A stretch of DNA of 42,048 bases from Methanothrix sp. (GTDB taxonomy: Archaea; Halobacteriota; Methanosarcinia; Methanotrichales; Methanotrichaceae): assembly GCF_024518575.1 (NCBI RefSeq), contig NZ_JANIHG010000011.1:1-42048 (forward strand), given 5' to 3'. The notes below the pieces were generated by a model. That model made no database searches. It saw only the letters and a list, made by a program, of their open reading frames with translations, and had not been told where the DNA came from. Below, piece after piece: positions 15,327 to 18,371 of the stretch. Position 1 is the first letter of the stretch; each line of letters opens with the position of its first letter. A program made the translations under genes and the position numbers.

Positions 15327-15778
15327 TTCTTCCGGCAAAACTGCAGTCATGCAGGTTGATTTCGGACTGCAATTATCGCTTTTGTGCTCAGAATTGCATT
15401 CTGCGGATCCAGCGATATTGATTGTGTGCTGAGTTGAAGTCCGTTTCTGTGTTCCAGGTAGCGTCTCGAATATCTGAACACGCATTCGGGGTGATGGCTG
15501 CTTAAATTCCATGAATTCGATGGATGCTGTGCAACTCGAAGAGTCAAGCACATGCAAGCAGTGCTCCTGAAGCAACCTGGAGTCCAGGCCAATAATATTA
15601 ATAAAGATCTATATTTGAGATCGAGCAGAATTTATAAATATTATCGTCAACTCCATCATTTGGCTCAGGGCCAGCATCTTCGTGCATGTGCGGATCTCAG
15701 CTTTGATGCCTGCTTTTAGAGTCTGTCCTTTCAACCACAGCACGTAGAGCACAGAGCCCTGGATGGAGGTTGATGTGC
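15327..15778 (+). other. Intergenic region and leader of the DRE-TIM synthase gene
   Basis: No gene is visible in about 450 bases; short minus-strand frames here run through the tRNA and have no protein pattern. A strong TATA box (15631-15640) would give a leader of about 115 nt before the ATG at 15779. I see no recognisable riboswitch in the leader, although its length would allow regulation. Confidence 0.5.
15631..15640 (+). promoter_or_regulatory. TATA box of the DRE-TIM synthase gene
   Basis: TTTATAAATA, the most consensus-like box in this gap, predicts initiation near 15660. Confidence 0.55.
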
Positions 15779-17059
15779 ATGCGGTTCATGTCCTATGAGG
15801 ATCTCCCGAAGATAAGATTGCCGAATGGAAATGATGTATTCATAAGCGACTCCACTCTTCGCGACGGGGCCCAGATGCCAGGGATCGTCATAACTCTGAG
15901 GGACAGGTTGAGGATATACGAGTACCTTCACAGGATAGGCATAGAGAAGCTGGAGGTATTCCTCTTCAGCACTACCGATAAGATGGCCGCAAGGGAGATG
16001 CTGGACAGGGGATACAATCCAGAGGTCACCGGCTGGAGCAGGGCGAACAAGAATGACATAGATCTTGTGTTGGAGATGGACGGGATCAGAGAGACAGGCA
16101 TACTGATGTCGGTCTCGGATCCTCACATACTGATAAAGATGGGGCTTACAGGGCGCGAGGCGGCGCGGGAGATGTACCTGAGCGCGCTTCAGTATGCAGT
16201 CGACCACGGTCTCAGAACCAGAGCGCATCTTGAGGACATCACACGCTCGGATCTGGAGGGCTTTGTCTACCCTCTTGTGAGGGATATAATCGACATAGAC
16301 AGGGATTGCACCATCCGCATCTGCGATACCCTCGGATACGGACTGCCATTCGATGGCCTGAACGATCCGTACTCGGTACCCAGCATGATCCGGAGGCTTC
16401 GCGAGCTGGGAGTCAGGAACATAGAGACGCACATACACGACGATTTCGGATTTGGCACAGCGAACTCCATCGTCGGATACTGGTACGGAGCAAACTGGTC
16501 GAACCTCACATTTCTGGGAATAGGGGAGAGGGCTGGAAACGCGGAGCTTGAGAAGGTTCTGCTGTTTCTGAAGACCAGGGTCGAGGGGTTCGAGAAGTAT
16601 GATCTCTCATGTTTAACGGAGTTCGCGCAGTTCATGGAGGAGCGGGTGGGCATAAGGGTGCCGAGGAATAAAGCCGTTGTCGGCAAAAACATATTCTCGC
16701 ACGAGAGCGGCATACACACAGCTGGCGTGATCAAGAACCCATTCACCTACGAGCCGTACCCGCCGGAGATCGTGGGGGCCACCAGGAGCCTCATGATAGG
16801 TCCGACATCCGGCAGAGAGGTCCTGAAGCTCAAGGTAGAGGAGGCGCTGAGAGAGCTCATGGACGTGGATGTCAGCATAAACAAGGACGACTGGCGGCTC
16901 AATCTCATGCACTCTGAGATAAAGAGGCTGTATGATGAGGAGAAGAGAAGGTCATGCATATCTGACGAGGAGCTGAAGGCGTACGTTGAGAAGTACTTCC
17001 TCTTCGAGTCGATATTCGAGAACGAGAGCCATACAAGTGGAGATCCCATGCCGGACTGA
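15779..17059 (+). CDS. DRE-TIM acyltransferase (citramalate/homocitrate/Re-citrate synthase family)
   Basis: 426 aa from the ATG eight bases after GGAGGT (15765-15770). The N-terminal DSTLRDGAQ (about residues 24-32) is the family's D-RE metal/base motif, and HIHDDFGFGTAN (H218, H220) gives the HxH metal ligands, followed by FLGIGERAGNAELEKV and NIFSHESGIHTAGV. These enzymes condense acetyl-CoA with a 2-oxoacid. The protein ends about 100 residues after the barrel and lacks the LeuA regulatory domain, so feedback-inhibited isopropylmalate synthase is unlikely. Homocitrate synthase, citramalate synthase or a Re-type citrate synthase feeding glutamate synthesis all fit; I cannot choose from sequence. 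It is a single gene with a long leader. Confidence 0.75.
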   Translation: MRFMSYEDLPKIRLPNGNDVFISDSTLRDGAQMPGIVITLRDRLRIYEYLHRIGIEKLEVFLFSTTDKMAAREMLDRGYNPEVTGWSRANKNDIDLVLEMDGIRETGILMSVSDPHILIKMGLTGREAAREMYLSALQYAVDHGLRTRAHLEDITRSDLEGFVYPLVRDIIDIDRDCTIRICDTLGYGLPFDGLNDPYSVPSMIRRLRELGVRNIETHIHDDFGFGTANSIVGYWYGANWSNLTFLGIGERAGNAELEKVLLFLKTRVEGFEKYDLSCLTEFAQFMEERVGIRVPRNKAVVGKNIFSHESGIHTAGVIKNPFTYEPYPPEIVGATRSLMIGPTSGREVLKLKVEEALRELMDVDVSINKDDWRLNLMHSEIKRLYDEEKRRSCISDEELKAYVEKYFLFESIFENESHTSGDPMPD

Positions 17060-17106
17060 GCGAATGGCCAGGAGCGTTCAGCGTCTTGTAGGGAGTGGAG
17101 ATCGAA

Positions 17107-17116
17107 AAACTATATC
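17107..17116 (+). promoter_or_regulatory. TATA-like box upstream of the structured region and RNase P RNA
   Basis: AACTATATCT lies about 27 bases before 17136 and is the only good box between the synthase gene and rnpB. If used, the transcript would begin about 120 nt before the mature RNase P RNA. Confidence 0.4.
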
Positions 17117-17135
17117 TAGATTGGAATGGAGTGTG

Positions 17136-17250
17136 TGTATTCTGGATCTCATGCCCGAAGGGGCATGGAGATCCGCTGTCCTGGAATGAGTGGCAGCCTG
17201 CACAGATGCTGGGTTTATCCATGAAGCAGGAGGGCACTCATTCTAGGATG
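17136..17250 (+). ncRNA. Candidate structured RNA or rnpB 5' leader
   Basis: Two strong stems lie in 115 bases. Hairpin 1 (17144-17174) pairs GGATCTC-ATGCCC with GGGCAT-g-GAGATCC, 13 bp with one bulged G and a GAAG loop. Hairpin 2 pairs 17180-17192 with 17235-17247 (13 bp, one G-U), then CCTGC (17197-17201) with GCAGG (17226-17230). Above that ACA-GA faces TGA, a pattern that resembles a kink-turn but is not canonical. I recognise no known family; it lacks a proper ACA box for an H/ACA guide. Whether it is a separate RNA or part of a precursor of RNase P RNA is open. Confidence 0.4.
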
Positions 17251-17256
17251 AAAAAT

Positions 17257-17569
17257 GGGCGCGAGAGAGGAAGGGCGGCTGCCGCTGGCCGGCATCGGCC
17301 GGTGTGGAAAGTCCCCCCACCTCTGGACACACAGGCATCGCGATGATGCGGGGCGAGAGCTCCGGCTCTGGCACAGAAACGGGACTGCGCCGTGATAATG
17401 CGATGATGCCGAAAGGCGGAGGTCTCACGGAATGCAGATGAAACGGCGAAACCCTGTGGGTGCAAGCCAAAATAGGGCAGCTCTGGGGGTGTCCAGCCCC
17501 TTGCCCGGGTATGGCGCTAAGCTGAATGCCGCCGGAACAGAAGGGGGCTTACTCTCCTGACTCGCGCCC
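17257..17569 (+). ncRNA. rnpB: RNase P RNA (archaeal)
   Basis: Catalytic RNA that removes tRNA 5' leaders. The ends form a perfect 9-bp P1 (GGGCGCGAG at 17257-17265 with CTCGCGCCC at 17561-17569). The conserved cores are present in order: GGAAAGTCC (CR I), CAGAAACGGG, GAAACGGCGAAACCC, GGGTGCAAGCC, and the 3' core GGAACAGAAGGGGGCTTAC that forms the P4 pseudoknot with CR I. Length about 313 nt. Its last 21 bases overlap the 3' end of the DUF99 gene on the other strand, so the P1 strand also encodes that protein's final residues. Confidence 0.93.
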
Positions 17570-18151
17570 GATCCTCATTGCAGCTCTTGCGATGAGCCTT
17601 GCAACCCTTACAGGCTCGGGTATTCTCCCCTCAAGTGTGAACCTGTTCAGCACAGCCCTGGCCTCTTTCAGAGAGATGCCATGTGCTCTGACAAACAGAT
17701 CATATCCTGTTTTCAGCCTGAGAGCGCTCCGCTCGCCCAGCGCCCTGTATCTCCTGAGACGCTCAGCATCACCGGGGAAGTACTCCTCTATGTATTTCTC
17801 AAGTCCATCCGACTCCTCGTAGGTGACGCTGATCACCGGCAGCCCGGTCTCTCTGTGTACCATCTCCGGATCTATTATGTTGAACCAGCTGATCACATTT
17901 CCGCTCAGCATTAAAATATTGATGTCGTCTCTATTGAGCTTTCTGTATATCGACAGCACCCCACCGGTCGCGTCCATCCCTCCCACTGTGATCTCCGCGA
18001 GCGCGACGCCGTCGATGCGCAGATCCCCGCGCATCACAATGCCTGCCAGCGTGGAGACAGGGTCAGAGCGCACGAAGCTCTCTGCGATCCCCAGCGCCCT
18101 TATCCCGGGCTTGTTGACGCGTATGGCCTTCTCGACATGAAAGCATGACAT
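17549..18151 (-). CDS. DUF99 (UPF0215) family protein
   Basis: 200 aa from ATG 18151. The DUF99 pattern is clear: VNKPGIRALGIAESF near the N-terminus, STLAGIVMRGDLRIDG, then TVGGMDATG and a GLPVISVTYEE segment. The family is structurally related to endonuclease V, but its activity is not well established. The ribosome site GGAGGT is itself one arm of a perfect 6-bp stem (18152-18166) ending one base before the ATG, so translation may be limited by structure. A longer reading to 18268 exists but its extra residues look unconserved. The stop codon lies within the RNase P RNA gene of the other strand. Confidence 0.8.
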   Translation of the reverse strand: MSCFHVEKAIRVNKPGIRALGIAESFVRSDPVSTLAGIVMRGDLRIDGVALAEITVGGMDATGGVLSIYRKLNRDDINILMLSGNVISWFNIIDPEMVHRETGLPVISVTYEESDGLEKYIEEYFPGDAERLRRYRALGERSALRLKTGYDLFVRAHGISLKEARAVLNRFTLEGRIPEPVRVARLIARAAMRIGRESGE

Positions 18152-18166
18152 GGAGGTTTGACCTCC
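18152..18166 (-). promoter_or_regulatory. Ribosome-site-sequestering stem of the DUF99 gene
   Basis: On the minus strand GGAGGT-CAA-ACCTCC lies immediately before the ATG. The GGAGGT is the ribosome site (nine bases from the ATG), and its perfect complement could hide it in a hairpin. Confidence 0.45.
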
Positions 18167-18371
18167 TTTGGCGGATCGTTTTCTGGACGAAGCTGAGAGC
18201 AGATCAAAGCTTTCAGCCTTTTTGCACGTCTCTCTGTCGCATGCGGGGTTTTCGTGTGGCTTTCTCACGACCTTGAATGGCGTGCTCCATGCACATCGAC
18301 TGCACGTCGAATTTCATGCATCGACTTCATCGAGGGCATCCGATGGCATCTTAATTTCGGTTCATGCGATA

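Follow-up and report, generated by a model that had tools for sequence, protein, structure and literature searches.

In this study, the segment directly upstream of the RNase P RNA gene (rnpB) of a Methanothrix species is described as what is probably a structured 5' leader, specific to the genus, with which the primary transcript of RNase P RNA begins and which is most likely removed. The position of the promoter, the conserved arrangement of the locus, the covariation of paired strands, the absence of the leader in related genera and its folding independently of the ribozyme were all computed from the genomes, while the exact start of transcription, the cleavage and the nuclease are proposed here from sequence. 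The term window denotes the whole stretch of 42,048 nucleotides that was analysed, and all positions are counted on it.

Promoter and layout of the rnpB locus

RF00373 matches the rnpB of the window with 208.2 bits (E 7.8e-61), the match spanning positions 17263-17563. Promoters were scored with a BRE/TATA matrix built from 24 tRNA genes of the same genome. The sole good match in the 330 nt 5' of rnpB covers 17102-17117 (10 bits), and within 60 nt of the RF00373 start no promoter was found in the window, the best score being -2.6 bits. The same situation is observed at all six loci of the genus, where scores of 7.7-10 bits are reached at 145-163 nt and no site within 60 nt exceeds 0.9 bits. 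From the BRE/TATA box onward, CGAAAAACTATAT is identical in six out of six species, and the distance from its first base to an invariant GGATCTC is exactly 41 nt, free of indels, in every one of them.

In tRNA genes, the end of the motif found by the same matrix lies mostly 23-35 nt 5' of the mature tRNA end, with a mode of 25-27. Transferred to rnpB, this spacing predicts that transcription starts at G17144, where hairpin 1 begins, or just upstream of it (Table 1). That the only rnpB promoter is located 5' of the leader in all six species supports co-transcription of the leader with rnpB, as judged from the genomes.

The leader proper comprises the 113 nt between promoter and rnpB (17144-17256); positions 17107-17143 represent the promoter plus the bases 5' of the expected start and lie outside of it. 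The leader is a single-copy sequence in the genome, and a repeat or mobile element was rejected. On the upstream side, the promoter is preceded by a gene resembling LeuA/citramalate synthase, and on the downstream side rnpB is adjoined, in each of the six species, by a convergent minus-strand gene. In the window, the end of this gene overlaps rnpB, and the 3' strand of P1 therefore doubles as coding sequence.

Table 1. Features of the leader-rnpB locus in the window.
Feature	Position	Strand	Remarks
LeuA/citramalate-synthase-like gene	15770-17059		stop codon at 17059; name read from the sequence alone
BRE + TATA box, promoter of the leader-rnpB unit	17103-17116	+	CGAAAAACTATATC; 10 bits, BRE/TATA matrix
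Predicted transcription start region	17137-17144	+	from tRNA motif spacing and fixed 41-nt spacing; predicted to start just before or at GGATCTC
Hairpin 1	17144-17174	+	17144-17156 with 17161-17174; 13 bp, GAAG loop, bulged G at 17167
Hairpin 2	17178-17249	+	15-bp basal helix, 17178-17192 with 17235-17249, two pairs G-U
Unpaired purine-rich linker GAAAAAT	17250-17256	+	between hairpin 2 and RNase P RNA; putative processing site
rnpB, RNase P RNA	17257-17569	+	313 nt; P1 = GGGCGCGAG/CTCGCGCCC
Convergent gene	17549-18268	minus	239 aa; stop end overlaps the rnpB 3' end by ~20 nt (17549-17569)

Secondary structure of the leader

An earlier note on this DNA had recognised a structured segment between the only good TATA box and rnpB, a description that is borne out by the promoter matrix, the RF00373 match and the fold energies. 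Measured against dinucleotide-shuffled sequences, positions 17107-17250 fold with a z-score of -5.4 (none of 200 shuffles is as stable), and for 17144-17256 a z-score of -7.6 was obtained (0 out of 500). The note had further assigned 13 bp to each of two stems, which is correct for hairpin 1; the basal helix of hairpin 2 turned out to be longer, with 15 bp. Across an internal loop, hairpin 2 is capped by a 5-bp upper helix, CCUGC/GCAGG, formed by 17197-17201 and 17226-17230. Over the six species, the z-scores of the leader fold amount to -7.6, -4.5, -2.1, -2.4, -1.0 and -4.0; the leader of G004, taken alone, is no more stable than its shuffles (z -1.0).

Joint folds of leader and rnpB equal the sum of their parts within 0.3 kcal/mol and contain no cross pairs between the two. 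In folds of the leader only, the last 6-9 nt are unpaired in five out of six species. The linker is purine-rich in all six species and is followed by the G of GGGCGC; the relatives carry CAAAAAC, CAGAAAC, CGAAGAC and CGAACGC at this place.

Conservation and covariation within the genus

The genus is represented by the six sequenced species of our collection, three of which are close relatives. All of them exhibit the same order of promoter, GGATCTC, a leader of 113-131 nt and an rnpB of 313 nt, and each genome holds one copy of the leader, always directly 5' of rnpB. Compared with the window, the leader shows an identity of only 41-59%, with indels, versus 98-99% for rnpB; the downstream convergent gene reaches 88-90% and the promoter stretch 83-88%.

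Only the window species and G002 have the LeuA/citramalate-synthase-like gene directly 5' of the leader; in G001, G003 and G005 it was not found within ~1.3 kb upstream. This difference suggests that a rearrangement took place near the promoter. Since the upstream gene is common to these two species only, promoter, leader and rnpB represent a conserved unit.

A covariance model constructed from four species retrieves the other two at 48 and 24 bits, the lower score belonging to G002, whose hairpin 2 is kept only in a diverged form. The search of 44 genomes of the family's other genera with this model yielded just two weak matches at chance level (E 0.18 and 0.37). In the model alignment, 96% of the cells are paired, compared to 86% after shuffling and 28-50% if the partner strand is displaced by 1-3 columns. 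Changes on both sides occur in 11 out of 26 pairs, versus 4.4 in the shuffled and 0-3 in the displaced controls; the corresponding covariation scores are 0.43, 0.24 and 0.04-0.12. The check for covariation in relatives that the earlier note had proposed gave a positive answer for the six species of the genus.

Within hairpin 2, five of the nine modelled pairs of the basal helix have changed on both sides, with 98% of the cells paired, and the helix is kept in all six species. The six basal pairs of hairpin 1 are kept in 97% of the cells; this hairpin adds little covariation because its 5' strand is nearly invariant, which may be due to the needs of promoter or initiation rather than to RNA structure.

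Covariation was counted here on an alignment fitted to the structure. Therefore, an alignment-free strand-swap test was run as well, in which the 5' strand of each species is matched against the 3' strands of all species; it is independent of the alignment, the strands being chosen by eye. For the four most distinct species, the assignment of strands to their own partners is better than all others (1 of 24 assignments), and with all six species only 2 out of 720 assignments reach the pairing of the true partners. The paired columns hold 21 G-U cells and no A-C cell, which indicates that it is the plus-strand RNA that is conserved.

Some details differ between the species. In G003 (L026, 1801-1927 on the minus strand), a 10-nt deletion takes the top of hairpin 1 and leaves its six basal pairs intact. 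The apical part of hairpin 2 carries the sequence GGAGCCYRCUCANAUGYGGA, together with a short compensating helix, in L016, L017, L021 and L026; the window species retains it only in degraded form, and G002 lacks it. This apical sequence may represent an older contact to a protein or RNA.

Promoter placement outside the genus

The comparison set of 30 loci was drawn from the family's other genera, with two loci coming from a second family in the class. An AT-rich hexamer containing TA is found 18-62 nt 5' of the RF00373 start in all 30 outside loci versus none of the six genus loci, and the BRE/TATA matrix puts the promoter 22-32 nt 5' of the RF00373 start in nearly all of the 30. Compared with every close relative examined, the genus has its promoter shifted upstream by ~120 bases. 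None of the 30 outside loci contains the leader. In a wider survey of the phylum, scored with the matrix of this genus, the best motif lies within 60 nt of rnpB in 42 out of 64 loci; most of the remaining loci show a TATA-like stretch at 20-55 nt, as judged by eye, and the survey was counted as supporting evidence only.

The promoter geometry of the relatives suggests that their RNase P RNA is born mature, with transcription predicted to start at the mature 5' end or a few nt upstream of it. The rnpB of the genus belongs to RF00373 and has a BRE/TATA promoter, as in other Methanotrichaceae and Halobacteriota, but differs from theirs in the spacing: their TATA box is located ~20-60 nt upstream, without a leader, in the 30 nearest loci, and most loci of the wider survey have it at a comparable place.

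Comparison with known RNA classes

The segment had been said to match no known family. This is in line with Rfam 15, which gives no match in the leader at the gathering threshold; the best sub-threshold match of a permissive search is sR53 with 15.1 bits against a threshold of 49 (E 0.21). A kink-turn consists of a C helix, a 3-nt bulge, tandem sheared G.A pairs and an NC helix (PMC4245976). With a strict search for C-helix/NNN/GA...GA/NC-helix, no kink-turn was found in the window, and the matches in two relatives occur at chance frequency and at differing places. The K-turn-like bulge of the second stem, and with it the suggested binding of L7Ae, was consequently abandoned, as no such motif is conserved in the relatives either.

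Several other classes were rejected. Concerning a box C/D sRNA, an exact C box (RUGAUGA) is found in none of the six species, and near matches as well as CUGA are not conserved. A box H/ACA sRNA would require features that were likewise not observed, as there is neither a conserved ACA 3' of hairpin 2 nor a conserved K-turn. The frames of a small protein gene are broken by stops and non-triplet indels, and the species share no open reading frame. As for a minus-strand RNA, the A/T-rich stretch of the minus strand is confined to the window species, and G-U without A-C favours the plus strand. An intrinsic terminator is excluded because hairpin 2 is followed on the plus strand by GAAAAAT, which is not a U-tract. 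Our literature search returned no paper joining Methanosaeta or Methanothrix with RNase P RNA, and no transcript data.

Alternative explanations

The earlier note left two readings side by side, one in which the segment is part of a 5' precursor and one in which it is a small RNA of its own, produced together with RNase P RNA. A co-transcribed leader is supported by the upstream promoter in six out of six species, the covariation and the fact that the leader is found nowhere else. Of the two readings the precursor fits better, because beyond the part near the promoter the primary sequence is hardly conserved, whereas conservation would be expected of a guide or antisense RNA. Excision of the leader and its accumulation as a small RNA acting in trans is quite improbable in our judgement. 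The leader is indeed discrete and compact, with its own promoter and stable hairpins, and four species share the apical sequence of hairpin 2. This sequence, however, is decayed in the window species and lost in G002, the leader never occurs away from rnpB, and family matches, C/D or H/ACA boxes and a conserved K-turn are all lacking. Unlikely, too, is a leader that is kept, such that the mature RNase P RNA of the genus carries a two-hairpin 5' domain before P1. This would demand no assumption about a nuclease; pairing is maintained under sequence drift, as in peripheral helices of RNase P RNA, and the RNase P RNA remains intact in joint folds. On the other hand, the leader varies in length and changes in sequence much more rapidly than the RNase P RNA (98-99% identical), its unpaired purine-rich linker looks like a cleavable joint, and the examined relatives appear to have no such 5' extension.

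A role as cis-regulator of rnpB, i.e. as a thermosensor, an attenuator or a feedback site for an RNase P protein, is very unlikely: the position between promoter and gene and the very stable hairpins would suit it, but an intrinsic terminator is precluded by the missing U-tract after hairpin 2, neither a ligand-like core nor a K-turn for L7Ae is conserved, and the predicted leader folds show no switching with rnpB. Least credible of all, and close to dismissed, is a chance hairpin in a spacer, with rnpB being transcribed from an unrecognised promoter beside P1. Weak single-genome folds in G002, G003 and G004 would be compatible with it; the conserved promoter with its fixed 41-nt spacing, the covariation, the G-U cells without A-C and the lack of a TATA box within 60 nt at all six genus loci speak against it.

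A proposed precursor of RNase P RNA

For the precursor leader, we propose the following course. Transcription would start around 17137-17144 from the BRE/TATA box at 17103-17116, and the transcript would run through the two hairpins and the unpaired purine-rich linker into rnpB. The hairpins are predicted to form an independent domain unpaired with the RNase P RNA, such that the 5' strand of P1 would be left free. Fast sequence drift with kept pairing suits a folded spacer, which may hold the leader away from the ribozyme and present the linker before the first G of P1. A cut at the linker just before G17257 would generate the same mature RNase P RNA as in the related genera. One candidate nuclease is RNase P itself, cutting single-stranded RNA in front of a G, a mode proposed for B. 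subtilis; another would be an endonuclease with subsequent 5' trimming. The leader was presumably gained in the ancestor of the genus by placing ~120 nt between promoter and ribozyme.

The flank of the yeast RNase P RNA precursor is a leader. In yeast, RNase P RNA arises from a precursor by trimming, and the RNase P RNA of Drosophila is intronic (PMC6797745). The Drosophila case resembles ours in that a lineage moved from a mature-ended RNase P RNA to a precursor that needs removal of a 5' flank; it differs in being eukaryotic, in its flank, which is an intron, and in the use of the 5' exonuclease Rat1/Xrn2 (PMC6797745). With respect to bacteria, a review reports that their RNase P RNA cuts single-stranded RNA on the 5' side of guanosines, and that the RNase P of B. 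subtilis may act on its own RNA, the precursor of which has 5' and 3' extensions and for which autolytic processing was suggested (PMC11143913). A site of this kind also exists in front of P1 in Methanothrix. The likeness lies in an RNase P RNA with a 5' extension in which a single-stranded stretch preceding a G could be cut. In contrast, B. subtilis is bacterial and no structured, covarying two-hairpin leader is described in the passage concerned (PMC11143913); processing in Methanothrix we infer.

Biological implications

As far as we found, the formation of the 5' end of archaeal RNase P RNA is little studied. A genus in which a leader is inserted between promoter and ribozyme represents a natural before/after comparison, with one cultured representative. 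This comparison bears on three possibilities for RNase P RNA, namely self-maturation, dependence on a nuclease, or retention of an added domain. That the RNase P RNA of the genus has acquired a novel 5' domain, or releases itself from its structured leader, is a tentative and rather doubtful idea at present. If true, it would mean that archaeal RNase P biogenesis has shifted here from an RNA born mature to processing or to an added domain.
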